Shown: positions 415 to 60,555 of the stretch, piece by piece
Layout of the letters: each line of letters begins with the position of its first letter
Position numbering within the stretch: the stretch's first letter is position 1
NCBI RefSeq assembly: GCF_963675165.1
Contig: NC_087377.1
Coordinates: 12,510,632 to 12,574,631 of the forward strand
Length of the DNA stretch: 64,000 bases
Direction: 5' to 3'
From: Halichondria panicea
Lineage: Eukaryota; Porifera; Demospongiae; Suberitida; Halichondriidae
Made by a program: the position numbers and the translations under genes
Notes under the pieces: model-generated
Told to the model about the DNA's origin: nothing
Seen by the model: only the letters and a program-made list of their open reading frames with translations
The model's database searches: none

Positions 415-2049
415 ATGGCTGTTAAGATATGGCATTCTTTTGTCTTCAAAATATTGGTGTATGCTGGTAAGCTAATCTAGTCTCTCTAGACAGTGAATTA
501 ATAAGTATTCCACTCTCACAGTTATAATACAATGGTTGGTTGCAGGTATACGCTTGGTGCTTGGTGGTCTGACTCGTGACTACACTGAAACCCCCTGTGC
601 TGGTGATATGATCTCCCTCACTTGTACAGTGCCTGGGGCTTTACTGGAATGGGACGTGCCTGAACCAACGAGGGACATACAACTTGATGCTGGATCTGTA
701 GTCCCATTCCAACGAAATCAGTACACAATTAACACAGCTGTGTTGACGTTGAATTCCACCAGTTCAATGTTCTCCTCCAGTTTGAGTTTCCCTGCAACGG
801 ACGGGATCACTATTGGTTGTTTTCCTCTAACAGAGCCAATGATGAGGAACGAACTCACCATACTGACAGCAAGTAAGGTTCTGGGTTCTGTAGAGACATT
901 ATGACAGGACTATGAACCTTTTCTCTACAGCTGCTCCTTTACAACCGAATGGATTCAGTAACTCAATTTTGAGTACTTTAGCAAACAAAGTTAATGTTTC
1001 TGTTCGTTGGGATCCTCCTAATGGCAGAAATGATATCACCTACACAGTGACTATCTCACCTCCGGCCCAGCTCTCTGCAACTGTCACCTCTGTCACTGTG
1101 ACTGCTCAGTATAATGTGGACTACACTGTCAGTGTTGTGGCTACCAATTGTGCTGGGAACAGTACGGCAGCTGAGTACAACTTTAGGATTGGTGAGTTTT
1201 ATTTTTGACACACAGTGTCAACTCCTCCTCAGGCAATTACTGTCCTGTGTTGACCAACCCCATGAATGGAGTGTTTGGACCAACCACCAACAGTTTGCCA
1301 GGATCCACGATAACCATCCAGTGTGATGCTGGGTATGTGTCTACTGTTACAATGGTGACATGTGAGGGTACACTCATGTGGAGTCCAGACCCTGAGGCTA
1401 TTGAGTGTACATCACTAACCACACATACTCCCACAACTCGTGAGTTAAGCTTGTGGCTGTGTATGGATATATTAATTTTATTTTGTGTTAATTTTTCACA
1501 CAGTCCCCCCTCAAATGAATTGCACAGCTTCACTACCCCCACCACGAAATGGCACCATCAGTGGTCATTCAGTACCAGCTATTCCTGGTACACGAGTGGC
1601 CTTTCAGTGTGACGATGGACTGTTCCCTGAGGGAATAATGACTGTCACCTGTCTAGCTACAGGAGAGTGGGACAGGAACACGGGGGAAATTGTCTGCAGA
1701 GGCAAGCGTATTTATTACTTGCATACACTTGTAATCATAATTATTCTCTCCTGAACCAACTACAGCTGCTCTTTGTAATTGCGCCAGCCTATCTGATAGG
1801 AGTCAATTTGATGCAGCTGTCTCCATCAGTGTGGTTGTCACGGCAGCTCTATTCACAGTCATTGGATTGTTGATGGGACTCTTGATAATGTATTTGCTCA
1901 TGCGTAAGAAGGCAGCGTACTCCCCGTCAGCTGAAGGTCAAGCTAATGTAGGACACACTGTACCAGCTGGTCCTGTTTATGAGGAGGTGTCACCCAAAGA
2001 GGAGATTGAACTGAACACTAACCAGGCGTATGGACCATTAGGACAGTGA
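415..2049 (+). CDS. R1: Ig-FN3-CCP-CCP single-pass receptor with tyrosine tail
   Basis: Predicted six-exon gene, 442 residues. Exons: 415-466 signal peptide, 546-872 Ig-like, 931-1191 FN3, 1233-1439 CCP, 1504-1701 CCP, 1766-2049 membrane segment and tail. Every internal boundary is phase 1 and the spliced length is divisible by three. The Ig exon shows the Cys pair around LTC and IGC; the FN3 exon has VRWDPP and a YNVDYTVSV strand; each CCP has four Cys and a Trp. The last exon has a hydrophobic helix (about VVVTAALFTVIGLLMGLL), then MRKK, then a cytoplasmic tail with VYEEVSP and NQAYGP. The fifth intron uses a GC donor (AG|GCAAGC). The domains indicate a cell-surface recognition or adhesion receptor; the ligand is unknown. 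The Ig exon is more diverged from the 34-54 kb copies than the rest of the gene. Confidence 0.82.
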
Positions 2050-14640: not shown

Positions 14641-17600
14641 CTAGTGCTTGGCGTATTGCTTCATGGGGTGTGGAAGTGCCGGGGGTTCGTTGTTAGGGGC
14701 TGGTTTAGGGGGGCGGGGTGGAACCATCTCACCAGTTCTGCATGGGGAAGAGAGAAATAATGTATAGCACGAAGTTAAGAGTAGATAAGAGTGATTAGTA
14801 GTTATAGTAGTGTAGTATACAGAAGAACCTCGATTATTCGGACACCTTGGTTCCAAAGGAAGACCAGATAACTGAAAATGCCGGATAATCGAATTGATAA
14901 ACCCACTTAATTGATAAAAATTGATAGTGCATGTGGGCGTCTGCGCATGCGCAGAAGATAAACATGCCTGCCTGAGTCTATGGTAACAGCTGTTAATTGT
15001 GCATGTACAGTAAGGGACACGCACATTTTCCATTGCCATGCAATCGAGGTTCTGGATAATCAGTTGAGATTCTATACTCTAATATTTGAACATTGTGTCA
15101 TCACTGATAGTAATTTGTTATTGCAGACATGCTGATTGCGTAGTTTCACACACAGGTCACTGAGGTCAGTGCTATAGGTCAACAACTCTAATAAACTCAT
15201 AGAATAATGACGTAGACGTAGAGTTCGGCAAATTCATAGAGCAGTGTATAGTCCAGTTGCTCATTACCCCAACCTAGAGATACCACCACCTTTTAATTCG
15301 TTGGCTTATTAATTTTACTTATGACAACTTTAGTTGTGTGCTAAGGAATAAACTAGCTTTCCATACAATTGTAGTGGTAAACATTAAATACAGTTATTAC
15401 GAATTCGAATTAAGAATTACGAGTCTGTGCCAGTAACTTGCACGAGTGCTGCCTGCAGAATCATTCAACTTACGATTTAGGAGGGCGTGAGGGTGTGAGT
15501 GTATTTAGTAGTCCCGGACTGTCATCTGTCACTGTGGGGGATTTAGAGGGGAGGAGTGGGGTTTTGTCGTACTTATACGAAGTATTTGGTGTTGCCAAGC
15601 AAGAGTTCAACTCCACAGGGAGACAACCTGTGTGTATGTGTGGAGCAAAGAATGTGTCATTGGAATGATTCTCGCCATTTTAGTAGCGTAAAAACACAAC
15701 TATGTAGTGCATGTACAGGCACTTAAGCTCTCTAAAATTCAGCAGAATACAACTACTTCTTGTACAATAATATAAAAATAGTGGGTTTGGCCATTTGGCA
15801 AATCAAGGCGGGGTCACCAAAATTAAAAATCACCAGTTTTACTTTCGTACTCAGCCCCAGTACATTGCACAAGATCAGCATGATAATTATGATTGTCAAA
15901 TCAAATAGTTCAATAGCCTCATTGAAGTACATTGTGCTGATGATAGTCCCTACATTGTTCAGCATGTGAACTATAATTATTGTCTACAAATACTATAAGT
16001 GAGGTAACATACGTACTACACAGAAAGCTTGTGTGTCAGCAAATTATGAATTACATAGTGGACACTGTCAGGTAGGTGTACACTATTATAGCATGGCATG
16101 GTTTCCTTAAGGAATACAATAAGGAAGCATAGTACATGAACATGCATGTACATGTACGTTACAACACATACATACCCAATTAGAGTTCATTAGGTGTCTG
16201 ATCTAGGCACAAATACTCAGCATAATTATAACTGCAACCACTTGAGATACAAGACTCTAACAATAACAGCAACTGATAATACGAGGAAAGGCCATGAATA
16301 ACATCAGTGATAATCATCTAATATTTATTCATTGCAAAGTTCCTAAGGTCTGTGTTAGTTGTAAACATGTTTTTGGTCAGAAACTTAGCAAAATAGCATG
16401 AGAGGGAGGTTCTCATTTCCATGATTCAATTATTGATGATGTCATAAAATACAAATTTCCTGTTTGACGTCATTAAATAATGGCTGACACCAGCAATATA
16501 ATGGTAATTTTAAGCTGGCACTAAATGAGTATGCGGGAGGCTCACCAGAAACACGTTTGTAACTAACACAGACCTTAGGAACTTTGCAATAAACAAAATT
16601 TAAGATTTAACAGTTTATACAACAGCATGTATTGTGGTTGTGACCTATGCTGGACAGACCACCTACTACGTTTTAAGTGGAGTTGCGTTCCTAATGAACT
16701 CTTGATATATACGTAGAGCACAAGGGGCTTAATTTTCGCTGTATAGTGAATCAGAATGTGTAATGTGGTGGCTTAGAAGACAATACAATACCGTATAGCG
16801 GGTATATTTCGAGGGTATAACATTTTCGCGGTGTTCGCGGATTGAGCATGTACCGCGAAAATTTATATTGAATAGTAGGCGTGTTTAGTATTATTGACCA
16901 CACCTATTGACAATGAAAAAGGAATCAAGAGACAAGGACGCCGGTATAGCCAGCTAGCTTACTCTACGTCTACTGTATCCCCTGACTATGGCCTGCACAG
17001 CAAACGTTCTGCTAGAGGTGGAGGACATACATTGACTTGTAGTGCCTCACCGATTCTATTATTTTATACAGGCTAGGCCTGGATTCGAGGCTAACGGTGT
17101 GAGGTACAGCTGCATGTTGATGTGCGCATGTGCCAAAAGGCTGGAATTCAGACCACGAAAATAAAATCCGTGAAATCCTTCCATCCGCGATAATTTATAC
17201 CCCTCGAAATATACTCGCTATACGGTATATACATATCACCTATATACACACAGCAACTTGTGATAAGTGGGAAAAATGTACGAGTGCAACACTGATCGAC
17301 GTTTTGTAAAAACATTGTACATGAGGTTTAAGTGAAATAAAAAGGCAAGTTAAGGATGCATCTTAGGCTGTTATAAAACAAAACTACGTATGTGACAATA
17401 TCAATCTTGCTTAAGATAGCATTGGAGTCTCAAATATTAAATTCAAGAAAAAGCAGGCAGTGTATGCACCGACTGTACTCACTAGTCCCGTGAATAGTCA
17501 TGAGATCCTTTGACAGTTGCTCTTCTCCGATCTTACTGAGATGATCAGCCAGCTCCCTCCAGGTTATTGGTTGTTCAGAGCAACTCCATTGGTTAATCAC

Positions 17601-20600
17601 CTCCGTTAAACAGCCAGCACTGTCATTGCAACATGACTCCTCAATCTAAGTTGAGATTAAGGAAACAAGTTACTTCCATTTTGCCAGTAGAAAACAATGG
17701 TAAATCAGGAAATTTACTTTACACTGAAAGAACATGTAGCTCATACCATCAACCTATTAACAAGAGTACATAAGGAGAGAAGAGTGTGTCGAACTACCGA
17801 TACTTCTACACAAAAATTGTGCACAAAGTAACATGACTTCGCACGTGATGAAGTATTGTAAACTTACTAGTAATCTCTTCTTAGTAGATGTTAACCGTGA
17901 CGTTTTAGGGGTGTGGTAAATTAAAAAATTATATGTTAGCTAGCTAGTCGTTCGCGTTTAGCAATCAGAGCTACTCACTGCACACCGATAAAATCATCTA
18001 AATAGAGACAATTTAATCCTCTTCACTTGCACTCTTCACTCACTATTAACAAATTCTGTGCGTTGCGTAATTATGTGCAAACGTCATCAATTGCGAGTTG
18101 CTCACGTGCAATTGACCGGATGTCACGTTACTTTGTGGACAGTTTTTGTGTAGAGGTATTGGTAGTTCAACACTCTCCTCCTTATGTACTCTTGCTATAT
18201 ATCCATCTGTATACTCCTGCTCACACTTGCAATTGATAAGTAACATACCTCTTGATGGAATTATGTACCTGTTCAATCATTGTCTCCGGCAGCCTCACAC
18301 TCTCAGCAAGCTCCCTCCACTTGTGCTTCATTGACCGGATCTGCACCAAGGCCTGGTCAATGTCCAGGAGCTTGTCCACATCTGCCGGGGCTGAGGATGT
18401 TTGTTGGTGAGAGTGCACTGTATATATAGTGGGTAACGAATTATTTATCCCAAGGAAATTACCCGCTATACAGTATATACAAACACCGTAAAGTTGTTTC
18501 CAAGACTGGACAACCAAACAAGCTAATGCATGCATGCATTGCATGCTTATATATAAACCACTAAAGTCTCCCCACTGTCCTATTGAAGTTATAATTACCG
18601 TATAAATTATAGCAGGTTATTTTTATATGGTGAAAATGTTTGTATATTTCGTATTGTAAAGAGCATCATACAAAAATTAAAACTCCGAAATTATTCTACT
18701 GCAAATAGATTCAATGTCACTATCCTGAGCTGTACGAAAATTGAAGTCGTTTGTATGAAAATTTGCAACGAAAATTACCCGCTATACAGTATGTTCTAAT
18801 CAGGTGATGAACTGACAAATATAGAGTCAAATTACCATAACTCAAAACAACCAGGAACAGATAATTCTACATATATACAAAACACTTCTTGTTAATCACA
18901 ATAATGGGAAAATATAAGCCTATACTGAAAGGAGAAGACTATCTTGTATACAACTATCAATACCATTGACAATGATTATTCAAAGCAATGACTAATCCAC
19001 ACAAACAGGCTCACCTGTTGGGCTGGCTGGGAGGGTGGCTGCCTTGGCTGATTGTTTCTTAGTGGCATCAATATCCACAGTGGCGTAGGTCACCTGATGT
19101 TGGTTTGCTGTGGTAGTACTAGTTGTGTTGTTTTTCTGGCTGGAGCTAAGGACAGCATAGACGACTGGCTCCAATGTGGCCTGTGGTGTCAAGAAACAAA
19201 CAGAGTAAAGAATTACATTTCACACTATGGTGCGGTTATATAACCAAAGCAAACACCCTATAAAGTCACAATAATCTCACTATAATGACTGCACACGTAC
19301 ACTCACCACAATACCGAGCTGTCCATAGGAAGGTAGTCTCTGAGCGCTCTGCAGAAAATGGAGTATATTTATACTCCATTTATACTCCATACTTATAGGT
19401 TACTATCTATACCTTTTCACTGTTGACGGTAACCTCATCGTAGGTTAATGAAGCAGGGTTCTATGATAAAAGTACAGACTAAACTCACAATGTGTCAATA
19501 CACCGAATTATGAGTGATTATGTTGTAATCTTCTTCGTCTGCTGCTGGAGGCTGGTACTACATTAAATATTTTGTACAAGTACTTTCTTAGGCATGCATT
19601 GTGTTAATATTATAATTATAGTAAAAACAATGGATCATAATACAATACACCAGACAACTAAAACCTACATTAATTATATCATCCATTTCCGTACTATTAT
19701 TTGATTTGAGTGTACTTTCTGTGAAAAAAGCGGTATTATAATTATAATAAATTATTTTTTTGTGGATTATTTCAACTCACCTTTTCCCATTCTTCTGAAA
19801 ACCACTAACAAAACTATTGCCCCTAAAATGATGAGTAACATGACTACTATACCACCAACAACACCTCCAGCTATAGCAGCAACGTTCCCACGTGTTACTG
19901 CCACACCTATATAATTATAATAGGTCATTATAATTATATATGTGCATGTATATAGGTATGACATACAAAACTTATAGTATGCAAGCATGTAGTAGCTTAC
20001 TGCATGATTCATTTCTGCAGATAATCTCTCCTGTGTTCTTGTCCCGCTCTCCATCTATACCATACAAGTGGCAGTCATTATCCCCTCAGGGTTGAATGCT
20101 GTCAACTATATACCAATCTTAAAGTTGTAGTCAGCGGTTGTACTATTTCCAGCACAGTTGGTAGCCACAACACTGACAGTGTAGTCCACATTGTATTGAG
20201 CAGTCACAGTGACAGAGGTGGATGTGAGGACAGTAGCAGAGAGCGGGGCCGAAGGTAATATGGTCACTGTGTAGGTGAGGTTATCTCTACCAACAGTCTC
20301 AGTAGGAGCGTCCCAACCAATAGTCACACTGACTCCATTGGCTGAGCTGCTCGAAGTGAAGTGTCTTATGGTGGAAAGTGGCCCTGGTGGATCTATAATT
20401 ATATTATGTATATAAGTGTAACTGTTTACATATAGCTTATATAAATAGGACGAGACACTTACTAATCAATTGGATCATTGAAGATCCTATAGTGGTTAGA
20501 GTAGGCTGTGGGTCCACACAAGACACAGTGATCCCATTCTCTGCTGTTCTTGACAGAGTAGATGTTAATGTAGTATCATTGAATGCAATCAGTGTCACAG

Positions 20601-20905
20601 TGTAACCAGAATGCATTAGCAGCATACTGATATTGGAGGTGGAGCGAACAGTGATGCGAGAAACATCTGATGGCTCCCATCTCAAAGAATTTCCAGGAGC
20701 AGTGCAGGTGAAAGTGACTAATTCTGTTGGACATGGTCTCTCATCACTCACTGAATATTGTGCTGTAAAGAAAATAGGCAAGATTTACCTGCATAATCAT
20801 CACAATTCCGAAAAGTAAATATAGTTTGATACCATGTCCAGTGACAGCACTCTTAGAAGCAAAATATAATATGACCACAAGGTCGCAGTATGGCCAATGT
20901 ATCAT
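14641..20905 (-). CDS. R2: Ig-FN3 receptor with ITIM cluster, death domain and proline-rich tail
   Basis: Twelve minus-strand exons join in frame to 536 residues: 20905-20833 signal peptide, 20762-20463 Ig, 20392-20114 FN3, 19906-19781 membrane helix (GGVVGGIVVMLLIILGAIVL), 19544-19504 (DEEDYNII), 19460-19413 (SLTYDEV), 19348-19307 (PSYGQL), 19180-19015 (PVVYAVL and QVTYATV), 18390-18269 and 17645-17483 death domain, 15627-15474, 14737-14641 (VPPRPPKPAP, stop). LTYDEV, VVYAVL and VTYATV fit the ITIM consensus. The death domain has KWRELAESVRLPE in the first half and QW...TWRELADHL in the second. Ectodomain exons closely match R3-R7. Known families suggest SH2-phosphatase docking, death-fold assembly and SH3 binding; the combined role is inference. 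The first exon has a weak donor (GTATCA), so the start is the least certain part. Confidence 0.75.
14820..15058. mobile_element. Probable pogo/Tc1-type MITE in an R2 intron
   Basis: The ends carry AGAACCTCGATT and its complement AATCGAGGTTCT, with CGATTATTCGG and GGATAATC words typical of pogo-like miniature elements. It lies between the last two exons of R2. The boundaries are approximate. Confidence 0.45.
16331..16590. mobile_element. 260-bp inverted-repeat element in R2 intron
   Basis: The left end ATTGCAAAGTTCCTAAGGTC and the right end GACCTTAGGAACTTTGCAAT are exact complements; similarity continues about 40 bp inward. The paralogous segment near 4805-4840 lacks the insert, giving an approximate empty site. 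Non-coding. Confidence 0.75.
16791..17225. mobile_element. 435-bp MITE with CCGTATAGCGGGT ends and TA duplication
   Basis: Terminal inverted repeats of about 33 bp (CCGTATAGCGGGTATATTTC at the left; its near complement ending CGCTATACGG at the right) are flanked by TA on both sides. It lies in an R2 intron. Fragments of the same family (CCCGCTATACAGTA or CTGTATAGCGGGTAA) are scattered at about 3838, 13732, 18470, 18777, 27437, 37523 and 51032. Confidence 0.75.
18595..18793. mobile_element. Short MITE related to the CCGTATAGCGGGT family
   Basis: About 200 bp, with a left end ATTACCGTATAAATTATAGC and a right end ACCCGCTATACAGTA. Its reverse complement matches the sequence directly left of the BEL/Pao element (37518-37679), which makes it useful for reading that insertion site. 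It lies in an R2 intron. Confidence 0.55.
20001..20090 (-). pseudogene. Relic CCP exon inside R2
   Basis: Between the FN3 and membrane exons the minus strand still reads the end of a CCP domain (PEGIMTATC, then in another frame GEIICRNES), followed by GTAAGC. An indel and an in-frame stop make it unusable, and the first half is missing. R2 therefore once had at least one CCP exon like the array genes. Confidence 0.65.
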
Positions 20906-21232: not shown

Positions 21233-22524
21233 ATGCTATATCTATATATATCTATTCACAAAAAAAATTTGAAAGCCTTTTATAGGGCCGGCTATATAGG
21301 CATAGATACTATATACTTGAAGTTGAAAGATCGGATCAAGCATGACGCCAATGTCAATGGTAAAAAATACTCATTAAGATCAAGACATGTTGTAACTTTC
21401 TGTGTTCAGGCAGTATCGGTGCTCTTAGAAGTATGCCTGATTATAAATGTGTCTGGTCTGAGGATGACCTTTACGTCATCTCTGCAATCAACAAACAGAA
21501 CCTACTCTTGTCCTGAGGAGATTGTTACCTATGTCTGCAGTGGAAATGGAAGTGAAATGGATCTATATGCCCCACCACACGTTTCTTCGACCTTTCCTTT
21601 GACGTATGACATTAACGACACTCCAGGGTTAAAACTTGGTGGCTCAGGCCCTATTGTAACGAGTCTTACTTCGACTAATCCTCTCGAAGCAAACTTGTTG
21701 GTGCAAAATTCTTCATTGCCAGAGTTTTCTGTTCATTGTATTGTTCGTGCACATTCATCTTCAAAAAAAGATGAAATCCGGTACATGCCTTCAGGTATAT
21801 ACTGATGGAATCAGCACTTTAATTAATAAAGACTCGCAATCCACTTTATTGCCCGAGAGGGAGTGTAGTGGGAACATGCATTGATTTGTACTATCAGGCA
21901 ACGGTCATTATAATAATCTCTTACTGCAGGTTTTCCTTTAGATGTGATTTCTCCGGTGATATTTTACGAATTTAACACTGCTGGTGTGAGAGTTACTTGG
22001 ATGAATAATGATGGACTCTATGATCCTAGTCACTACACAGTCCAGTTAATTGCAAATAATAATCTAACTGAATCCACCGTTATTTTTGCAGAAAGCAATA
22101 GATTAGTAGCAGTATTTGCTGCGTCTTTCAGTGCCACTGTGAATGTCTATGCAAGGATAACCGTGACGTCCAAGTGTAACCAGACATCTGATGGAGTTTT
22201 CACTGACACCATTCCAATATCTAGTGCCACTGATACCTTTCCGACAACTAGTGCCACTGACATCATTATGATAACTAGTGCAAGTTAGTTGCTAAAACTA
22301 CAATAATTTATGGGTAACTGATTTTTCTGTCATACGTTTTGTTACATTTTTCAAAGCTGCAGGCATATTAACTCCTAAAGTAGCTGTTTAGTCATAATTA
22401 TAGTGACCACTGTTAGTATACTACTTCATTTATTCATGCAGGTATAACAACAGAGTACGTGTTCTGGTTACTTCTTTCAACTGCAACATTCGTCCTATAT
22501 AGCAATATAGTATATATAGTGTAG
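21233..22524 (+). CDS. R11: divergent Ig/FN3-like receptor without cytoplasmic tail
   Basis: Three exons join in frame: the first ends at 21794 (GTATAT donor), then 21930-22283, then 22442-22524. The first exon has a hydrophobic stretch (VQAVSVLLEVCLIINVSG) as a likely signal peptide, then an Ig-like region with VTYVCSG and FSVHC. The second has an FN3-like fold (VRVTWMN, HYTVQLI, VNVYARITV) and a Ser/Thr-rich stalk with SATD repeats. The last exon encodes ITTEY, then a hydrophobic end (VFWLLLSTATFVLY...) and stops at once. That is the layout of a GPI-anchor signal or a tailless membrane protein. The 5' end is uncertain: the first ATG gives about 60 residues before the hydrophobic stretch, so a different first exon is likely. 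It is head to head with R2. Confidence 0.55.
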
Positions 22525-33235: not shown

Positions 33236-33400
33236 ACCCATGCTTTGTGAGAGTTTGTGACACTCAACGTACGGTTTAGGACAGTGTCTTTGATTGTCCT
33301 GGGATGTCATCTGTTACGGTGGGAGATCAAGAGGGGAAGGGGCTCTGTTGTACTTGTGCACGATCTTTGTTTGGTTTATGTTCAACTCCACAGGGAGACG
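33236..33400 (-). pseudogene. Decayed copy of R2 penultimate exon
   Basis: The minus strand reads RLPVELNINQTKIVHKYNRA and then a stop where R2 continues (R2: CLPVELNS ... SYKYDKTP). The acceptor is kept but the reading frame ends early. Confidence 0.65.
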
Positions 33401-33535
33401 ACCTGTTGAGTGTGTAAAGAGAGGGTGAGTGTTGGGTCATACAACACTGCATGTACAATGTTTATACTGGTGAAATTCGCTCCAAATTACTAAGCCCAAA
33501 AGCTGAATAATACTCCAGAAAACTTTGTACTGTAC

Positions 33536-33663
33536 CTGTTCAATCAATGTCTCTGACAGCCTCACAGTCTCAGCCAGCTCCCTCCACTTGTGCTTCATTG
33601 ACCTGATCTGCACCAAGGCCTGGTCAATGTCCAGGAGCTTGTCCACATCAGGCGGGGCTGGGG
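33536..33663 (-). pseudogene. Copy of R2 first death-domain exon
   Basis: A 128-bp minus-strand exon with intact acceptor (CCTCAG) and donor (GTACAG), reading PDVDKLLDIDQALVQIR and KWRELAETVRLSETLIEQ. It differs from R2's exon by a few substitutions and two extra codons. The second-half exon is missing from the expected position between here and the 33.3 kb relic, so this copy of the signalling module cannot make a complete death domain. Confidence 0.65.
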
Positions 33664-34210: not shown

Positions 34211-36462
34211 ATGACACTAATAGAGATACTAAAGCTCATAGTTCTTCTGCTTTGCTTTCTGGCTGGCTTCAGCACTGGTAAGACTGAATATTCAATAACA
34301 GATTTCCTTACATTGCTGTATGTTTCGTAAAGCACAATATTCAGTGAGTGTGGAGAGACCATGTCCAATGGAAACAGTCACTTTCACCTGCACAGCTCCT
34401 GGAGATACCTTGAGATGGGAGCTATCAGATGTTTCTCGCATCACTATTCGCTCCACCTCTGGTCTCAATGTACCACTAATGCCTCAACCAGGTTACACTG
34501 TGACATTGATTGCATTTGATGACACTACATTAACATCTACTCTGTCAAGAACAGCAGAGAATGGGATCACTGTGTCCTGTGTGGGTACTGTGTCTACCCT
34601 GACCACTATAGGATCTTCAACGATTCATTTGGTTGGTGAGTTGGAGTTAGTGTCTCGTCTATTGTGTCTGCATATACTATAAGTTACATAGATCTACCAG
34701 GACCACCGTCCACAATAAGGCATTCCATTTCAAGCAGCTCAGCCAATGAAGTCAGTGTATCTGTACAGTGGGACCCTCCTACTGAGACTGGTGGTAGAGA
34801 TGACCTCACCAACACAGTGACCATCTCACCTCCGGCCCAGCTCTCTGCTACTGTTCTCACATCCACCTCTGTCACTGTGACTGCTCAATACAATGTGGAC
34901 TACACTGTCAGTGTTGTGGCTACCAACTGTGCTGGGAACAGTACGGCAGCTGAGTACAACTTTAGGATTGGTGAGTTTTATTATTAAAATTTTTTTACAG
35001 TGTCAACTCCAGCCCTCTCACTTCCTCTCAGGCAACTGTCCTGTGTTGACCAACCCCATGAATGGAGCCTTTGGACCTGTCTCAAGCAGATTACCAGGAT
35101 CCACAGTAACCTTCCAGTGTGACGCTGGATATGTATCTGCTGTTACGATGGTGACATGTGAGGGTACACTGATGTGGAGTCCAGACCCTGAGGCTATTGA
35201 GTGTATTTCACTAACCACACCTACTCCCACAACTCGTGAGTTTAAGCTCTTGGCTGTATAATTATAGACAACGTTTATTCTATGTTAATTCTCACATCAC
35301 AGCTCCAGTGAGCTGCACAGCTCCACTATCCTCACCACGGAATGGCACCATCAGTAATCATTCAGTACCAGCTATTCCTGGTACACAAGTGACCTTCCAG
35401 TGTGACGATGCACTGTTCCCTGAGGGGACAATGACTGCCACCTGTCTAGCTACAGGAGAGTGGGACAAAAACCCAGGAGAGATTGTCTGCAGATATGAGT
35501 GTAGTAAGTGACTTCATTAATTATGTGCATCCTCCATCTCGCATACTCAGTTTCGTGTGTCCTGCCTGCCCCTCCACTCAATGGAACATTACTTAACACC
35601 AACTCTCAGAACACTAACCTAGTCGAGGGCTCAGTCATTACCTTCCAATGTGATCCTGGGTTCTCACCGGTGGGTGCAGTGATTGTCACTTGTAACAACT
35701 CTGGTCTCTGGGATCCTGACCTGGCTCTATTGGATTGTGTTTGTACGTACACATGAGTATATAGTAATAAACCAGCTGGTACAACGATATATAATTATAG
35801 CTCAAGGTTCCAATTACTGTTTAGATATTTACGGTATTTGAGGCGATAGAGAGGTTTATCTTTTGTTTGGAGGTTATATATTAGTGAGTAGGAAAGTTCA
35901 GGGACGGAAGTCGATCGATCATGGTGTCGAGGCCAGAAAAAAACACTGACTTCTGAGCAACATTGACAAAGATAAACAATTTTGCTATCCTGAAAATTAA
36001 TTTCATTGCTCTCTAGTATATTATTTGCTGCTATAATTATAGGTTTGATTCCATGCTCATACATCATAGTTATTATACTTGACATAATTTGCAGTGCTCT
36101 GGTAAGCATGTGCAACTGCCTATATACAGGCTTCTGGATCAGCTATGGTGCTCTAGTTGTTATCACAATATTAATTTTATTGCCAATCCTTCACAGCTCC
36201 GACTGCTGCCACTCTATCAAGTGGTGTAACTCTTGCCATCGGTGTTACTACTACTTTCGTTGCCTCTACTCTCCTTGGATTTCTCGCTGGACTCCTGGTG
36301 ATGTACTCGTTCATGCGTAAGAAGGCAGTGTACTTCACAAGAAAAACAACATTATCTGCTGTAGAACCCACTAAACCAGTTGGTCCTGTTTACGAGGAGG
36401 TGTCACCCAAAGAGGAGATTGAACTGAACACAAACCAGGCGTATGGACCATTAGGACTGTGA
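34211..36462 (+). CDS. R3: Ig-FN3-CCP-CCP-CCP receptor with tyrosine tail
   Basis: Seven exons in frame, 503 residues: 34211-34277 signal peptide (MTLIEILKLIVLLLCFLAGF), 34333-34635 Ig (VTFTCTAPGDTLRW ... ITVSC), 34692-34970 FN3 (SVSVQWDPPTETGGRDD, YNVDYTVSVVATN), 35032-35235 CCP, 35303-35503 CCP, 35551-35742 CCP (CVLPAPPLNGTL ... NNSGLWDPD), 36197-36462 membrane segment and tail. The helix (TTTFVASTLLGFLAGLLVMY) is followed by MRKKAVYF, VYEEVSP and NQAYGPLGL. All joints are phase 1. The Ig exon is strikingly close to that of R2 (both contain SDVSRIT and the HSGYT/QPGYT loop). No break is seen, so it is probably functional. Confidence 0.85.
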
Positions 36463-38386: not shown

Positions 38387-38444
38387 ACTACGTTGATACG
38401 AACAGTGATACAAACTCATTCTCAGACTCCAGCCTTTCACTGCA

Positions 38445-45751: not shown

Positions 45752-48560
45752 ATGACACTAATAGAGATAATAAAGCTCATTGGAGTTCTCCTGATTTGCT
45801 TTCTGGCTGGCTTCAGCACTGGTAAGACTGACTATTCAATTATAGATTTCCTTACATTGACACTGCATGTTTCATAAAGCACAATATTCAGTGAGTGTGG
45901 AGAGACCATGTCCAATGGAAACAGTCATTTTCACCTGCACTGCTCCTGGAGATTCCTTGAGATGGGTACCATCAGATGTTTCTGCTCCAATCACTATCCT
46001 CTCTACTGCTGATCTCAATGTGCCACAAGAAACGCAGCCAGGTTACACTTTGACACTGATTGCATTCAGTAGCACTACATTAACATCTACTCTGTCAAGA
46101 ATAGCAGAGAATGGGATCACAGTGTCCTGTGTGGGGTTTGATCCTACTTTAAATACTATAGGATCTGCAACAATCCAATTAGTTGGTGAGTTGCAGTTAG
46201 TGTCTCGTCTATTGTCTGTATACAATAAGTTACATAGATCCACCAGGACCCCTGTCCACCATCAGACACTCCACTCTGAGCAGCTCAGCCAATGCAGTCA
46301 ATGTATCTGTACAGTGGAACCCTCCTACTGAGACTGGTGGTAGAGATGACCTCACCTACACAGTGACCATCTCACCTCCGGCCCAGCTCTCCGCTATTGT
46401 CCTCACATCCACCTCTGTCACTGTGACTGCTCAATACAATGTGGACTACACTGTCAGTGTTGTGGCTACCAACTGTGCTGGGAACAGTACAGCAGCTGCC
46501 TACAATTTTAGAATCGGTTAGTCGAGTCGGACGTATATATAGTCTTTAAACAGCATACTATTAAAAAACACTGACTCCCTCTTGTGCAGGTGGCTGTCCT
46601 GTGTTGAATGGAGCGTTTGGACCAACCACCAGCAGATTGCCAGGATCTACAGTAACCATCCAGTGTGACGCTGGGTATGTGTCTGCTGTTACAATGGTGA
46701 CATGTGAGGATACACTGATGTGGAGTCCAGACCCCGATATTGAGTGTACATTGCAAACCACACCTTCTCCTATACCGTGTAAGTTTTGTTTGCATGTGCA
46801 TGTAGATGAAATTTAATTTTTGATCTTCTATAGTCCCTCCGATGAACTGCACAGCTCCACTATCCCTACCAAGGAATGGCACCATCAGTGATCATTCCAT
46901 ACCAGCTATTCCCGGTACACAAGTGACCTTCCAGTGTGACAATGGACTATTCCCTGAGGCCATAATGAATGTCACTTGTCTAGCTACAGGAGAGTGGGAC
47001 AAGATCCCAGGGGAGATCGTCTGCAGAAATGAGTCTAGTAAGTTTCCTGATTTATGGTTTAGTGTACTCAATTTATTGAGCTCAAAGTCGAATTACTAAA
47101 AATTCAAATGAGCGTATAAATATTTCATTTTTACATCAATCATATTCCTTGTACTCAGTTTCGTGTGTCCTGCCTGCCCCTCCACTCAATGGAGCTTTAC
47201 TCAACACCACATCTCAGAATACTAACCTAATGGAGGGCTCAGTTATTACCTTCCAATGTGATCCTGGGTTCTCACTGGTGGGTGCAACGACTGCCACTTG
47301 TAACAACTCTGGTCTCTGGGATCCTGACCTGGCTCTGTTGGAGTGTTGTACGTACGCATATGAGTAGTCATAAACTAGCTGGTACAACGATATACCGTAA
47401 ATGCGCGAAAATTTCAAGGCATGCACTTACAAATATACCAGAAACACTCCCAGGCCACGCCTTCAATCTTTGCACGTTATAGCAAATAAATTAGCAAAAA
47501 TTAAGCCCCTTGAAAATTTGGCACTGTACTGTATAGCTCAAAGTACATTTATATACAGTATAGACTCTTGCTATTCTGGCTCTCTGAAGTACGGTCACCT
47601 CGATATACCGGCCAGTTAGTTTGGCACAGATTGCACAAAACTCACCCTGAAACGCTGCCACTCGTTATATTCCGTATACTGGCTGCCCCTCACTAGGTTT
47701 TAATGTACGTTTATTACGGCCGGATATGATGTTTTGGGTGTGGTTTGGCAGATAAAATTGGATTACACTTAAATATAAGAGCAGAATGATTCACTATCTT
47801 CATTATCCTCGAGACAGACCCGCAAAATTAGTCATTAGATTCGAGGTAAGGTTGTTTTTAAGCCACAGCTATATTCTGAAATACAGCCACCTCGCTATTC
47901 CGGCCAATCTGCACTGTCCCAAGGGTGACCGGATTAACGAGAGTCTACTGCATAGCATTTACGATTTTTGATATTTACGGCACTTAATATTAAATTGATA
48001 TGATAGAGAGGTTAATCTTTTGTTCGGAGGTTATATTAGTGAGTAGTAAACTTCAGAGACGGAAAAAAAACACTGACTTCTCAGAAAAATTGACGAAAAT
48101 TAAATTTGACTCTTGAAAATTAACATGTTCATACAAAACTGACATAAATACCTCATACAACACAGTACTCTGATTGTGATAATTGCCTATAATTATCAAT
48201 TAGTGCTCTATTTGTTGTCCTAAGAATTATTGCCAATCCTTCACAGCTCTGACTGCTACCACCCTATCAACTGTTGTAACTGTTGCCATCGGTGTTACTA
48301 CTACTTTCATTGTGTCTACTCTATTTCTCGCTGGACTCCTAGTGATGTACTTGTTTATGCGTAAGAAGGCAGTGTACTTCACAAGAAAAATAGTATTATC
48401 TGTTGTAGAACCCACTAAACCAGTTGGTCCTGTTTATGAGGAGGTGTCACCCAAAAAGGATATTGAACTGAACACTAACCAGGCGTACGGACCAGTAGGA
48501 CCACCCAAAGAGGATATTGAACTACATACTAACCAGGCGTATGGACCATTAGGACTGTGA
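45752..48560 (+). CDS. R5: Ig-FN3-CCP×3 receptor with duplicated tail motif
   Basis: Seven exons in frame, 516 residues: 45752-45821 signal peptide, 45880-46185 Ig, 46238-46516 FN3, 46590-46778 CCP, 46834-47037 CCP, 47159-47347 CCP, 48247-48560 membrane segment and tail. The first CCP is five codons shorter than in R3, lacking the residues between PVL and NGAFG, but keeps its four Cys. The tail has VYEEVSPKKD, then NQAYGPVG, then a second NQAYGPLGL after KEDIEL: the distal module is duplicated, giving one more tyrosine than in the sisters. The intron before the last exon is long (900 bp) and contains a MITE. Confidence 0.83.
47556..47950. mobile_element. TIR element in R5 intron
   Basis: The left end CAGTATAGACTCTTGCTATTC and the right end, complement of CAGTAGACTCTCGTTAATCC, are imperfect inverted repeats of the pogo/Tc1-like kind. 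It has no transposase frame. A fragment with the same end word is near 53080-53098. Confidence 0.55.
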
Positions 48561-51325: not shown

Positions 51326-52726
51326 ATGACACTAATAGAGATAATAAAGCTCATTAGAGTTCTTCTGATTTGCTTTCTGGCTGGCTTTAGCACTGGTAAG
51401 ACTGGCTATTCAATTATTGATTTCCTTACATTGACACTGCATGTTTCATAAAGCCCAATATTCAGTGAGTGTGGATAGACCATGTCCAATGGAAACAGTC
51501 ACTTTTACCTGCACTGCTAATGGAGATATCTTGATATGGGACCTGCCTGGAAATCGTATCACTGTTCTCACCACCTCTGATCCACTAGTAATGCAGTCAG
51601 GCTACACTGTGACACTGATTGCATTTGATAACGATACATTAACTTCTACTCTATCAAGAACAGCAGAGAATGGGATCACTGTGTCCTGTTCCGAGATTGT
51701 GTCTACTCTAACCACTATAGGATCTTCAACAATCCGTTTGGTTGGTGAGGTCTTGTCCATTGTCCATTGTCTGTATGTGTAAAAAATGTATATATAGATC
51801 CACCAGGACCACCTTCTGCTGTAAGACATTTTATTTTGAGCAGCTCAGTCAATGAAGTCAGTGTATCTGTACAGTGGAACCCTCCTACTGAGACTGGTGG
51901 TAGAGATGACCCCACTTACACAGTGACCATCTCACCTCCGGCCCAGCTCTTTGCAACTGTCCTCACATCCACCTCTGTCACTGTGACTGCTCAATACAAT
52001 GTGGACTACACTGTCAGTGTTGTGGCTACCAACTGTGCTGGGAACAGTACAACTGCTGACTACAACTTTAGGATCGGTGAGTCGACATCGTTAAAACAGC
52101 AACTATATATATATACTGACTCCCTCTTGTGCAGGTGGCTGTCCTGCATTGACCAACCTCACGAATGGAGCATTTGGACCAGTCTTCAGCAGATTGCCTG
52201 GATCAACAGTAACCATCCAGTGTGATGCTGGGTATGTGTCTGTTGTTGCGATGGTGACATGTGAGGGTACACTGATGTGGAGTCCAGACCCTGAGGCTAT
52301 TGAGTGTACATCACTAATCACACCTACTCCCACAACTCGTTAGTTAAGCTTTTGGTATACATTAATTCTATTACACATGCAGCCCCTCCAATAAACTGCA
52401 CGGCTCCACTATCCCCACCACTTGAACCACCTACAGCTGCTCCTTGTAATTGTAATTGTGCCAGCCTATCTGATGGGAGTCGATTTGATGCAGCTGTCTC
52501 CATCAGTGTGGTTGTCACAGCAATTGTATTCATGATAATAGGATTATTTGTGGGACTCTTGATAATGTATTTGTTCATGCATAAGAAGAATGTGTACTCC
52601 CCGTCACCTAAAGAGCGAGCTAACGTAGGACCCACTGTACCAGCTGGTCCTGTTTATGAGGAGGTGTCACCCAAAGAGGAGATTGAACTAAATACTAACC
52701 AGGCGTATGGACCAGTAGGACTGTGA
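51326..52726 (+). CDS. R6: Ig-FN3-CCP receptor, shortened by exon fusion
   Basis: Five exons in frame, 395 residues: 51326-51395 signal peptide, 51454-51744 Ig, 51798-52076 FN3, 52135-52338 CCP, 52383-52726. The last exon is a fusion: it begins as the second CCP (PINCTAPLSPP) and then runs through what is intron end in R1 (CTTGAACCACCTACAG) into the membrane exon (APCNCNCASLSDGSRFDAAV). The result is one complete CCP plus an 11-residue stub, still in frame. The helix VVVTAIVFMIIGLFVGLL, MHKKNVYSP, VYEEVSP and NQAYGPVGL follow. The Ig exon is four codons shorter than in R3. It may be functional as a short-ectodomain form. Confidence 0.8.
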
Positions 52727-53553: not shown

Positions 53554-55530
53554 ATGACACTAATAGAGATAAAGCTCATCAGAGTTCTTCTGATTTGCTT
53601 TCTGGCTGGTTTCAGCACTGGTAAGACAGACTATTCAATTATAGATTTCCTTACATTGCTGCATGTTTCATAAAGCCCAACATTCAGTGAGTGTGGAGAG
53701 ACCATGTCCAATGGAAACAGTCACTTTCACCTGCACTGCTCCTGGAGATTCCATGAGATGGGTACCATCAGATGCAACTCCTATCACTATCATCTCTTCT
53801 CCCTCTGGTCTCAATGTACCCAATGTTGTATCAGGTTACACCATAACACTGGTTGCATTCAATGACACTACATTAACATCTACTCTGTCAAGAACAGCAG
53901 AGAATGGGATCACTGTGTCCTGTGTGGACCCACTGCCTACTCTAACTACTATAGGATCTTCAACGATCCGATTGGTTGGTGAGTTGCAGTTAGCTATAGT
54001 GTATCGTCCATTGTCTGACTAAGTTACATAGATCCACCAGGACCACCTTCCACCATCAGACACTCCATTCTAAGCAGCTCATCCAATGAAGCTAGTGTAT
54101 CTGTACAGTGGGACCCTCCTACTGAAACTGGTGGTAGAGATGACCTCACCTACACAGTGACCATCTCACTTCTGGCTCAGCTCTCTACTACTGTCCTCAC
54201 ATCCACCTCTCTACTACTGTCCTCACATCCACCTCTGTCACTGTGACTGCTCAATACAATGTGTACTACACTGTCAGTGTTGTGGCTACCAACTGTGTTG
54301 GGAACAGTACAACAGCTGAGTACAACTTTAGGATCGGTGAGTCGACATTGTCTTTAAACAGCACACTTCACTGACCCCCTCTAGTGCAGGCAACTGTCCT
54401 GTGTTGACCGACCCCATGAATGGAGTGTTTGGACCAACCACCAACAGTTTGCCAGGATCTACAGTAACCATCCAGTGTGACACTGGGTATATGTCTGCTG
54501 TTACGATGGTGACATGTGAGGGTACACTGATGTGGAGTCCAGACCCTGAGGCTATTGAGTGTACATCACTAATTATAACCACACCTACTCCTACAACTCG
54601 TGAGTTTAAGCTCTTGACTATATATTTACCTCGTGTGTGCATGCGCAGCGCACAGCAGAGGATAGAGTGATTGGTGTGTGTGTGTCGGTTTGTGTATGTG
54701 TGTATACACAACAATGAGCTGTTTGAGCGAACTAGACACTTTCATGGACTGCTTTAACTGCTCTACTTATATGCAGTTTAACTTGTAGGTAATCTTCGAA
54801 GATGACAAACTAATCAATCTAATCGTTGCTTTATAGATTCATTATCATATTATATTCCCCTAATGATAAAGTTGTTACGGTAAAAATTATTATATCTGTT
54901 TTGCTGCTGTGCGATGAAGCTCAACGCACGGGGTGAATGCTCTACTGAGCATCTTGTTAAATACTTCCAACAGTATGTTATTATTTACACAGCTGCTCCT
55001 CCAATAAACTGCAAGGCTCCACTATCCCCACCAAGGAATGGCACCATCAGTGATCATTCAGTACCAGCTTTTTCCGGTACACAAGTGAAATTCTAGTGTG
55101 ATGTTGGACTGTTCCCTGAGGGCATAATGACTTCCACCTGTCTAGCTACAGGAAAGTGGGACAAAAACCCAGTGGAGACAGTCTGCAGAGGCAAGTGTAT
55201 TCATTACTTAAGTAATCATGCTTTTATATACCTTGAACCACTTATACAGCTGTTTCTTACAATTGCGCCAGCCTAGATGGGAGTCGATTTGATGCAGCTG
55301 TCTCCATCAGCGTGGTTGTCACGGCAGTTCTATTCACCGTCATTGGATTGTTGATGGGACTTTTGATAATGTATTTGTTCATTCATAAAAAGAATGTGTA
55401 CTCCCCGTCAGCTAAAGAACGAGCTAACGTAAGACCCACTACACCAGCTGGTCCTGTTTATGAGGAGGTGTCACCCAAAGAGGAGATTGAACTGAATACT
55501 AACCAGGCGTATGGACCAGTAGGACTGTGA
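53554..55530 (+). pseudogene. R7: broken Ig-FN3-CCP-CCP receptor
   Basis: Six exons are recognisable: 53554-53620, 53676-53978, 54032-54336, 54390-54599, 54993-55190, 55250-55530. The FN3 exon is 26 bases longer than in all sisters because CTACTACTGTCCTCACATCC... is tandemly duplicated (54185-54210 and 54211-54236), shifting the frame. In the second CCP a CAG codon of the sisters is TAG (55094-55096). The membrane/tail exon is intact (VYEEVSP, NQAYGPVGL). The fifth intron has a GC donor (AG|GCAAGT). The fourth intron contains a copy of the gene family's own upstream sequence (from about 54680). Probably non-functional unless spliced around. Confidence 0.8.
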
Positions 55531-57002: not shown

Positions 57003-58383
57003 AGCCATTCAGTTGACATCCAGCAGTGGTGATGGTGCGGTATGTCCAAATGACCCTGTTGTCTTCACCTGCTCCGTTAGTGGAACTGTTCTACAATGGA
57101 TAGCTGATCCTCCACCTGGCTATATCGTATCTGGGTAGGTGACACAACTTTTATTCTCTATTTCTGGTACTCTACTGCCTGCTGGAGTTGAAGGATTCAT
57201 GTTTCAAGCTGCTGTAACGAATACAAGTAATGGTACTCTTACCTCCACTCTCACTACCATCACTGAGGTGTCCATGCTGAATGGCAGTGTTGTCACATGT
57301 TCCAGCGGTGGAACAATGGAGTCACGATCAATCACAGTGGCCGGTCAGTGAGCTAAACATATAACACTGTATATATTATTGCATTTCAAACACAGAGCCT
57401 CCATTGTCTCCATCAACTCCAATATTGGCTTCACAACATAATGTAGTCAGTTCCTCTATTATCACTCTGGACTGGGACTCCCCCTCTTCTACTGGTGGTG
57501 TGTCTGTCACTCAACTATGTCCTCATTATCTCCCCAAACCTTTCTCCGGGTCACCAGTCACCGTGGAGACCACCTCAGCACAGATAACTGTCTCCTACAA
57601 CACACTCTACAATGTGACCATCAGAGCTGTTAATTGTGTTGGAATGAGTGATGCCTCAATGTTGGTTACTATACCGTCCATAGGTTAGTATAAGTGCTAA
57701 ATTAATGTTAGTTTACTTCTATTTTCATGCAGTTGCCTGTCCCTCTTCCCTCTCTGCTGCTAGTGGGGTGGTAAACATCCAGATACCCCGTGTATACTAC
57801 TGTGCATGGGCTCCACACTTACCTTCACTTGTTCTGAAGATAATCAGATGAGAACCTCCATCTGTGGCAGTGATGGAAGGTGGAATCCTGACCCAAAGGA
57901 GTTTTTGTGTCCAACAATGTGATATATTTTTTGATTGTTCTCTTACAGAACCCCCAGTGACCTGTCCAGTTCACGGAGCTCCCTCTATGGGTAGTGTGAA
58001 CACTAGTGGTCAGTCTTAATTACACAAAGGGGTGACAGGAGGTCACATATCAGTGCAATGATGAACTGTTCCCCATAGGTATTCTGATTGCCACTTGCGC
58101 AAGAGACGAACAAAATGTAGTGTGGGAGCCTACCCCCAGTACGGTGGTGTGCAGGACAGTTCCAGACCAGTATTTCATTGTTGCTGCAATTCTTGGATTC
58201 CTCACTGGACTCCTAGTGATGCACCTTTGCTCTCATAAGAAGGCAGTGTATACTTCCCAGCAGCTGAAGGACAAGCTAACACTAGGACCCACTACACCAG
58301 CTGTTCCTGTTTATGAAGATGTGTCACCCAAAGAGGAGATTAAACTGAACACTAACCAGGCGTACAGACCAGTAGGACTGTGA
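57003..58383 (+). pseudogene. R8: broken, divergent receptor of the R9 subfamily
   Basis: Parts in order: Ig 57005-57345 with an in-frame TAG near 57136; FN3 57396-57683, open, with compensating indels (VTQLCPHYLPKPFSGS against VSISYVLTISPTPLSGS in R9); CCP from 57733, frameshifted with a TGA; CCP from 57952 with a TAA after GGTCAGTCT; then a direct fusion of that CCP exon (RTVPD) to the middle of the membrane helix (AAILGFLTGLLVMHL), so the third CCP exon and an intron are gone. The tail VYEDVSPKEE and NQAYRPVGL is kept. No signal-peptide exon found. Clearly dead. Confidence 0.8.
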
Positions 58384-58629
58384 AACTGGCATTCAATTAA
58401 TAGACATGCATGGACTACGTATACTATAGACACATTTTTAATTATACTTTTGTATGGTTAACTTATTATAAAATGTATATATTTGGCTGTAAAACCTATT
58501 GTCACATTCTGATGTGGTTTTTCTGACTTCCTCATGATCAATAGAAAGAGGTGTGTTTCATCATAATGGTAATCAATATTAAGGTATCTATACCATGTAC
58601 CAGCTATAATAATATATATAGGTCCTGCA

Positions 58630-60555
58630 ATGCAAGTACAGGCAGTTATTATCAGCATCCAGCTGTTTTATCTTGCTGCAGGTAAGTTACATAGATCATC
58701 TATACTAGCATGTGTTCACTGGAACACATAATTTTTTTAGCCACACTGATATCCACCCCCCCTGTGGCTTGTCCTGATGACACTGTCACCTTCACCTGCT
58801 CTCTGCCTAGTGATGTTGATGGGGCCATTCTCTGGACAGTAACTCCACCGCCAGGGTTGAATACAGTCAGTGTAAATGGAGTAGTGAATAACATTGGTAG
58901 AACATTAACGCTTGGTACTGATGAGATGTTCATGTTCCGAGCTGCTTACTCTGGACTGGATGGAGGCATGGTCACATCCACTCTCACCACCCTCTCTATG
59001 GTGACAGTGCTGGCTGGAGCTATGGTACAGTGTGAAGACTTGGGAGGAGCAGGAGGAGGTCTAATACCCATCCGTGTGGCTGGTATAAGTCTATATAATG
59101 ATGTTGGTCTGAGCATTTTAATAACAATAATTGAACAGATATCCCCTCTCCTCCACTGAACCCAGTACTGTTCTTCAATCAAAACCAACCCAGCTCTTCC
59201 ATTATCACTCTGGACTGGGACTCCCCCTCCTCTACTAGTGGTGTGTCTATCAGCTATGTCCTCACCATCTCTCCAACACCCCTCTCCGGGTCACCAGTCA
59301 CCGTGGAGACCACCTCGACAGAGATCACTGTCTCCTACAACACACCCTACAATGTGACCATCAGAGCTGTCAACTGTGCTGGAATGAGCAATGCCTCAAT
59401 ATTGGCGATACTCTCAATAGGTTACTTACAAATCTCAATAGGTTACTTACAATTTGTTTGATGTAAATGAATCACACTTAATTCTCTCCCTATGTGCATG
59501 CAGTTACCTGTTCCTCTTCCCCCTCTACTGCCAGTGGAGTCGTGAATGATCAAATACCCAGTGTGCCTACTGTCGGCTCAAAACTAAACTTTGGTTGCTC
59601 TGGAGAAAATCAGATGAGAACCTCTACCTGTGGTAGTGATGGACGATGGAATCCTGACCCTGAGGATTTCATGTGTCCAATAGTGGGTGAGTTGATGTGC
59701 GCTATACACATGCAGCTGTCGCTTACAACTTTATGTTTATAACATCACCGTATAGAACCTCCAGTGACATGTCCAGTTCCCGGGGTCCCCTCCATGGGTA
59801 GTGTGAGCACTGTTGGTCAATCTTACACAGAGGGGTCACAGGTCACATATCAGTGCAATGAGGGACTGTTCCCCATGGGTGTCCTGACTTCCACTTGCGC
59901 AAGAAACGGACAAAATGTAGTGTGGGAGCCTGACCCCAGTACGGTGGTGTGTAGGACAGTTCCAGGTAATTTAATTCAGTTTCTTCTGTTTATTAACTTT
60001 TGTGGGTCAACACAGTCAACTGCACTCTTCCTACCGAGCCATCCAACGGTGCTATAGTGGACTATGAGAGGTTGAACGAGACAGTGTTGGAGGGAACAGT
60101 GCTGACTTACCAGTGTGACAATGGACTCTCACTGACTGGACCCAACAACATCACTTGCACTAATGCTGGAGTCTGGAGCACTGAGCCTAAGGCAATCATG
60201 TGTGTATCACCAACTGAAGGTGAAGGCCATCATGTGTGTACTTGAATGTGAGTTATAGTTCGTAATCCCATAATACCTCGATTTCACAGGTCCTACTGCC
60301 ACCTCCCTATCCATTGGTGCAGTTGTTGCTATCAGCGTAATTATTACTTTCTTTGTGGCTGCCATTCTTGGATTCCTCACTGGACTCCTAGTGATGCATC
60401 TTTCCTCTCGTAAGAAGGCAGTATACTCTCTAGCACCTGAAGGACAAGCTAACGTAGGACCCACACCACCAGCTGGTCCGGTTTATGAGGAGGTGTCACC
60501 TAAAGAAGAGATGGAACTGTACACTAACCAGGCGTATGGACCAGTAGGACTGTGA
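58630..60555 (+). CDS. R9: divergent Ig-FN3-CCP×3 receptor with tyrosine tail
   Basis: Seven exons in frame, 512 residues: 58630-58681 signal peptide (MQVQAVIISIQLFYLAA), 58741-59082 Ig (VTFTCSLPSDVDGAILW ... AMVQC), 59139-59420 FN3 (ITLDWDSPSS, YNVTIRAVNCAGMS), 59504-59686 CCP, 59756-59965 CCP, 60016-60219 CCP, 60290-60555 membrane segment and tail. All joints are phase 1. The ectodomain differs much from R3-R7, but the helix (FFVAAILGFLTGLLVMHL), SRKKAVYS, VYEEVSP and NQAYGPVGL are shared; the tail adds a tyrosine (MELYTNQAY). It appears intact and represents a second subfamily with R8 and R10. Confidence 0.85.

Follow-up and report, generated by a model that had tools for sequence, protein, structure and literature searches.

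A clustered family of predicted Ig/FN3 receptors that carry tandem ITIMs and a death domain

Introduction

In the death receptor Fas, residues Y232 and Y291 of the death domain are reported as targets of Src kinases, which phosphorylate them, and of SHP-1, which removes the phosphate; SHP-1 has also been reported in association with phosphopeptides of the YxxL type from death receptors (PMC4778973). Here we analyse a gene predicted to encode a membrane receptor in which a death domain follows immunoreceptor tyrosine-based inhibitory motifs (ITIMs). It lies on the minus strand of a 64,000-nucleotide stretch of DNA, the window, which is C1:12510632-12574631 of the genome that was searched (131.5 Mb, 39 contigs, named C1 and so on), which its gene content marks as that of an animal. 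Positions given without a contig are those of the window.

Several animal receptor families bear on this gene. Vertebrate paired receptors are described as having similar ectodomains and opposite signalling (PMC3533184). Alr of Hydractinia and FcoR of Botryllus are described as clustered Ig receptors with ITIMs or other tyrosine motifs, and FcoR as having a variable-type Ig domain, a sushi domain and YxxPhi core motifs (PMC12065747, PMC11999971). For sponges, Ig-TIR receptors have been reported, as well as a gene of Dysidea that has Ig and CARD domains and responded to microbial patterns (PMC6208332).

As read from the sequence, the Ig and FN3 domains, the membrane helix, the tandem ITIMs, the death domain and the SH3-type ligands of the gene are kept together and are under purifying selection. 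We lean, if only slightly, towards the view that the protein is a type I receptor and belongs to an immune-type family of clustered paralogues, in which the phosphorylation state of the ITIMs sets the output of the death domain.

Results and discussion

The predicted gene and its protein

Splice modelling of the genomic DNA gives a minus-strand gene with its ATG at 20905 and a stop codon that ends at 14641, from which a membrane protein of 566 residues is predicted. The model has 13 exons, is in-frame throughout with all phases in agreement, and every intron runs from GT to AG. An earlier note on this DNA had placed the gene on the same strand, with the same coordinates, ends and motifs, and the in-frame joining to one protein that it claimed holds in the rebuilt model; its count of twelve exons has to be raised to 13.

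Exon 1 (20833..20905; this and all following exons on the minus strand) contains the start codon and a signal-peptide-like hydrophobic stretch, and is the least secure exon of the model. Its frame requires a donor after 20833, with CATG before and GTATCA after the cut, and the same donor context is found in two paralogues, L021 and L023. A donor after 20789 was rejected because the frame breaks. A V-like Ig domain is assigned to exon 2 (20463..20762) and an FN3 domain to exon 3 (20114..20392), while exon 4 (19781..19906) encodes what is by eye a transmembrane helix, followed by RRMGK.

The remaining exons make up the predicted cytoplasmic tail. A juxtamembrane exon 5 (19669..19718) is followed by four exons with tyrosines: exon 6 (19504..19557) with YQPP and EDYNII, exon 7 (19413..19460) with the ITIM LTYDEV, exon 8 (19307..19348) with PSYGQL, which is not an ITIM, and exon 9 (19015..19180) with the tandem ITIMs VVYAVL and VTYATV at a spacing of 24 residues. 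The two halves of the death domain are encoded by exons 10 (18269..18417) and 11 (17483..17645). Exon 12 (15474..15627) is proline-rich with PLLPSK and PSRPPK, and exon 13 (14641..14737) holds PPRPPK and the C terminus.

The death domain exceeds the Pfam Death cut-off of 22.6 bits, both as the correctly spliced segment alone (28.3 bits, E 2e-6) and within the full-length protein (23.6 bits), which bears out the two-exon death domain proposed earlier. A Death match at E <= 0.01 is found in all eight aligned family members. When a profile of the family's death domains is compared with PDB, 10 of the 12 matches are to FADD; they are weak, with a best E of 0.024.

The ectodomain is assigned less directly. 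FN3 is the best match of exon 3, and borderline against the fn3 cut-off of 25 bits: it scores 25.6 bits in a fragment of Ig, FN3 and transmembrane helix and 21.8 bits alone, and the Pfam scan of the full-length protein does not report it. The cut-off is exceeded in two of the five FN3 exons of the family that were scanned. For the Ig exon Pfam gives no Ig match, in the fragment or at full length, and a DUF7234 match falls below its cut-off; likewise, one Ig exon from the short-tail paralogues described below has no Pfam Ig match, and one Ig exon of the family's second ectodomain class (class 2) has an Ig_2 match below the cut-off.

The AlphaFold2 model of the Ig exon is a strand sandwich with a pLDDT of 78.4, other models going down to 45.3. 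Among the matches listed by Foldseek, the solved structures closest to it belong mostly to T-cell receptor and antibody complexes, with some to MHC class II; the best E is 7.7e-3, TM reaches 0.64, and none of the matches listed has E <= 0.001. Since there is no Pfam Ig match, the Ig assignment is by fold only, and by fold the predicted protein would have the extracellular Ig domain of ITIM-type receptors. The earlier reading of one Ig, one FN3 and one helix is thus kept, with the Ig by predicted fold, the FN3 by a borderline Pfam match and the helix by eye. As expected, a search of a phage collection with the ectodomain gave no match.

Copies across the genome

The search of the genome with the ITIM exon gave 19 matches, 15 of them free of stops. 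Downstream of each of these 15, both death-domain exons lie within 7 kb on the same strand. The core exons (Ig, FN3, helix, exon 9, both death-domain exons, exons 12 and 13) stand in the same order at nine of ten fetched loci. Four of the 15 loci are known mainly from search matches.

Two related loci, L008 and L011 (C1:14.43 and 14.51 Mb), lie on the same contig, 1.9-2.0 Mb from the gene. Read by eye and unspliced, their order is sushi-like sequence, a membrane helix, a tyrosine-motif frame, a death domain, a second tyrosine-motif frame, a second death domain and a relative of exon 12. The two intronless relatives of the death domain in L008 score 25.4 and 30.2 bits against Pfam Death. This order suggests that ITIM and death-domain parts were duplicated together, as one cassette.

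Because all 15 open ITIM exons precede both death-domain exons, exons 1 to 13 almost certainly form one gene that encodes one chain. If instead there were two adjoining genes, an Ig/FN3 ITIM receptor would end at about exon 9 and a proline-rich death-domain gene would start at exon 10. Compatible with such a division are the lengths of the introns that follow exons 9, 10 and 11 (about 0.6, 0.6 and 1.9 kb), which exceed those of the preceding introns. It is nevertheless highly improbable: besides the constant order at the open loci, the frames can be joined in the phases of the gene, and tyrosine-motif and death-domain frames alternate by eye in L008 and L011. The earlier note had taken separate genes as what would overturn its one-chain reading, and the 15 loci, together with the alternation in L008 and L011, make that outcome unlikely.

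Tyrosine and proline motifs

The tail contains five tyrosine motifs (EDYNII, LTYDEV, PSYGQL, VVYAVL and VTYATV), and three of the five (LTYDEV, VVYAVL, VTYATV) fit the ITIM pattern used here, [ILVS]xYxx[LVI]. Exons 12 and 13 together contain three SH3-type ligands of the pattern PxxPx[KR]. Both results agree with what had been noted before, namely five tyrosine motifs with three ITIMs among them and an SH3-ligand tail, which includes PPRPPK. Such numbers are rarely reached by chance: in 20,000 shuffles each, three or more ITIMs occur in 0.17% when exons 5 to 9 are shuffled and in 0.86% when the whole tail is, and three or more PxxPx[KR] motifs in 0.1%.

A site for tandem SH2 domains needs two motifs at a spacing of the kind seen in exon 9. 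The pair V[VI]YA[VA]L and VTYATV is found in 11 of 11 loci (the gene and the ten that were fetched), 23-26 residues apart, and every one of these tails has at least two ITIMs. Within exon 9 the conservation of the two ITIM hexamers is 0.94, against 0.77 for the remainder of the exon.

YxxPhi sequences also fit sorting signals. The tyrosine motifs could then be non-inhibitory, acting in docking or endocytosis (as YxxPhi signals or by SH2 adaptors) and tuning the traffic of a death-domain receptor, while the proline motifs would recruit SH3 adaptors. In keeping with this, phosphorylation of Fas Y291 is reported to prime clathrin endocytosis (PMC4778973). On the other side, the hydrophobic residue at position -2 and the spacing of the exon-9 pair are both kept at all 11 loci, and we regard such a docking or trafficking role as unlikely.

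Selection

The ratio of nonsynonymous to synonymous substitution rates (dN/dS) was calculated for the 21 pairs of seven class-1 genes, and again for the 15 pairs of six genes that remain without L023. The full set gives means of 0.21 (death domain), 0.34 (exons 7-9), 0.50 (helix), 0.52 (proline-rich tail), 0.62 (Ig) and 0.67 (FN3). Without L023 the means are 0.21, 0.31, 0.49, 0.57, 0.67 and 0.70 in the same order, so that the rank order is unchanged. The death domain has the lowest mean and the ectodomain the highest. As all means are below 1, the genes look constrained.

In L033 and L039 the ectodomains are nearly identical (dS 0.05 and 0.01) while the tails are old (dS 0.41 in the death domain), which suggests that ectodomain exons have been converted or exchanged.

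Short-tail paralogues and the cluster

The plus strand of the window contains genes with related ectodomains, sushi repeats (where these were scanned for), a helix and a short tail that is GPVYEEVSPKEEIELNTNQAYGPLG or close to it. They lie at the following positions, which are gene spans and not exon models. The gene at 34335..36459 has Ig, FN3, sushi, a membrane helix and GPVYEEVSPKEEIELNTNQAYGPLG, the one at 45882..48557 has sushi repeats, and a further one lies at 51456..52723. The Ig exon of the gene at 53681..55527 groups in the tree with that of L021, which carries a death-domain tail. The gene at 578..2046 combines two sushi repeats with an Ig that is diverged, and 57365..60552 holds short-tail genes with class-2 Ig/FN3 ectodomains.

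Genome-wide, the short tail has at least 150 exon matches, and all those scored are on C1:11.2-14.9 Mb. The receptor cluster thereby extends over about 3.7 Mb, with the ITIM-death gene inside it. The Ig-FN3 ectodomain has 172 matches in the genome and, among the matches listed, all are on C1 except one on C32. The earlier note had treated the gene as a single one: the gene is real, yet it belongs to a large family in which two tail types occur.

The Ig exon of the gene is 68-78% identical to the Ig exons of four short-tail genes. When 11 class-1 Ig exons are placed in a tree, the two tail types interleave: the set with death-domain tails comes together in 0% of 200 bootstrap trees, and L021 (death-domain tail) pairs with the short-tail A53 with support of 97/95. 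As judged by FN3, which is 62-69% alike across tails, the class-2 ectodomain also occurs on both. Related ectodomains on two tail types in one cluster are, as far as sequences can tell, the pattern of paired receptors.

The short tail has its own tyrosine pair, YEEV and YGPL, separated by 13 residues. The strict rule for an immunoreceptor tyrosine-based activation motif (ITAM) is Yxx[IL]x(6-12)Yxx[IL]. As a strict ITAM the short tail was rejected, for its 13-residue spacer and its V.

A different role for the cluster would be in cell adhesion or development; its expansion and the variety of its ectodomains would then simply follow from tandem duplication and conversion. Adhesion proteins, too, use Ig and FN3 domains, and the mean dN/dS of the ectodomain is below 1. 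Such a role fits less well with the 15 open loci with death-domain tails and the at least 150 short-tail exon matches in one region, and with the interleaved ectodomains, sushi repeats and ITIMs, which resemble what is described for the Alr and fuhc loci (PMC12065747). We find it doubtful, and improbable to the same degree as the trafficking role.

A bolder proposal, which we put forward only tentatively, is that the 3.7 Mb region is the self-recognition and immune receptor complex of this animal, probably a sponge. A shared and shuffled stock of V-like Ig/FN3 ectodomains would be placed either on an ITAM-like YxxV-x13-YxxL tail or on the ITIM-death tail, and a ligand that is absent or wrong could switch a cell, within one chain, between tolerance and a death-fold rejection of apoptotic or NF-kB type.

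The proposed signalling model

In the model that we favour, the ectodomain would bind a partner (self, non-self or microbial) and cluster the receptor. Src-family kinases would phosphorylate the ITIM pair, which would then recruit the genome's phosphatase with two SH2 domains and a protein tyrosine phosphatase (PTP) domain. The death domain could recruit a FADD-like adaptor of the type DED-Death or another death-fold partner, and, as in Fas, signalling by the death domain would depend on the phosphorylation state. Through their related ectodomains, the short-tail receptors might bind ligands of the same kind, and their output would be different and perhaps activating.

Read by exon and unspliced, the genome contains both an SHP-like gene (L043, SH2-SH2-PTP) and a FADD-like gene (L042, DED-Death). 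The partners that the model needs thus exist, while their binding is inferred.

A number of observations weigh against this model. Among the copies, L031/L032 is a tail for which no ectodomain is found within the 20 kb fetched. Stops interrupt four of the 19 ITIM-exon matches, and only one of these four has a match to the second half of the death domain in reach. Conversely, no ITIM exon is found upstream of four of the 19 matches to the first half of the death domain, and there are many death-domain fragments in the genome. One of the four is the remnant at 33.5 kb of the window, a second death-domain copy on the minus strand (33338..33658) for which no adjoining upstream exons of the gene were found.

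The paralogue exons were sought in the phases of the ITIM-death gene only. Since the modelling demanded these phases, phase agreement in the paralogues is partly built in, and what counts is that open, similar solutions exist. Class-2 loci are modelled poorly, with no exon 1 in three loci, failed FN3 borders in L035 and GC donors in L033, L035 and L039. L023 (C1:13.72 Mb) has a frame change inside FN3 and may be broken; it is otherwise a complete copy with a death-domain tail, and the frame change is either decay or an assembly error.

The tails vary as well. We found no tyrosine exons 6-8 in L025, L027 and L031 and no exon 6 in L033, L035 and L039; a third ITIM, that of exon 7, is present in eight of the 11 loci, the other three having two. 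The Ig tree is small (11 exons), and four of its eight inner branches are open. Class-2 Ig exons are 38-45% alike across tails and 36-43% across classes, so that only FN3 links the two tails in this class. As dN exceeds dS in just one of 15 pairs for Ig and one of 15 for FN3, with an ectodomain mean below 1, positive selection is not demonstrated. Finally, the binding of SHP to the ITIMs and of FADD to the death domain is assumed.

Neighbouring elements and other loci

A neighbour at 21491-22285 (+), arranged head-to-head with the ITIM-death gene, has an Ig-like exon that is diverged (21% identity) and what may be an FN3-like exon; neither has a Pfam match. It may represent a third class of receptor, with the intergenic region in common. 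Gag-pol-like open frames at 38409-43905 (+), which lie downstream of the short-tail gene at 34.3-36.5 kb, look by eye like a BEL/Pao-like retroelement, and an open frame at 63077-63970 (+) resembles, again by eye, a reverse transcriptase of the long interspersed element type.

Elsewhere in the genome, at least 148 death-domain matches are found (among the best 150 of 503 candidates), with tandem groups on C12, C14 and C15. Dozens of tandem tyrosine-phosphatase exon matches on C4:0.04-2.6 Mb are a possible cluster of receptor PTPs. On C7:585.5-593.5 kb (L041) a Death frame lies by eye directly upstream of a CSK-like SH3-SH2-kinase gene. A fusion of death domain and SH2 at this place was rejected, as the Death frame has a stop and the CSK-like gene looks separate.

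Comparison with known systems

UNC5 netrin receptors have Ig domains outside and a C-terminal death domain, and in addition TSP, ZU5 and UPA domains. The first two features are shared by the protein described here. None of ZU5, UPA or TSP is found in the Pfam scan of the full-length protein, which sets it apart from UNC5.

We know of no ITIM-bearing receptor of the Ig superfamily (LILRB, KIR, SIRP) and of no vertebrate paired receptor that has a death domain. In its Ig ectodomain, single helix and ITIMs the predicted protein is like LILRB, KIR and SIRP-type receptors (for LILRB, PMC11999971). It differs from vertebrate paired receptors in that the partner tail is not a strict ITAM. The combination of related ectodomains with a long or a much shorter tail is otherwise known from immune and self-recognition receptors.

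To our knowledge, it is not settled which receptors serve self-recognition in sponges. If this genome is that of a sponge, the cluster provides specific candidates, and V-like Ig receptors that have ITIM tails and whose tails have been exchanged would occur among the earliest-branching animals. ITIMs are already described for the cnidarian Alr and the tunicate FcoR loci (PMC12065747). A death domain is not mentioned in the parts of the descriptions of Alr and FcoR that we draw on (PMC12065747, PMC11999971), and here an FN3 domain follows the Ig. Alr is given 41 members, compared with 15 open loci with death-domain tails and at least 150 short-tail exon matches here, not all of them checked to be intact. 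The sponge Ig-TIR and Ig-CARD receptors likewise have Ig outside together with a TIR or a death-fold domain (PMC6208332); in them, as described, TIR or CARD takes the place that ITIMs and a death domain have here. Among the titles and abstract openings listed by searches of an open-access library, no Ig receptor with both ITIMs and a death domain was found described.

For one chain that joins phosphotyrosine control to a death fold, the earlier note saw no precedent. Fas provides one: tyrosine phosphorylation, Src kinases and SHP-1 act there on a death domain in a single chain (PMC4778973), and the arrangement here would be analogous. In Fas the tyrosines lie inside the death domain, whereas here separate tandem ITIMs stand before it and Ig and FN3 are outside. 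The ectodomain of Fas is made of TNFR repeats. No TNFR cysteine-rich repeats appear in the full-length Pfam scan, which also missed FN3, and Ig and FN3 together have just four cysteines, which does not fit a death receptor of the TNF-receptor type.

Since Fas is already under the control of phosphotyrosine and SHP-1, the principle is not new; it is the architecture that appears to be. If the model is true, the receptor would be a second arrangement, besides Fas, in which a death domain is under phosphotyrosine control.

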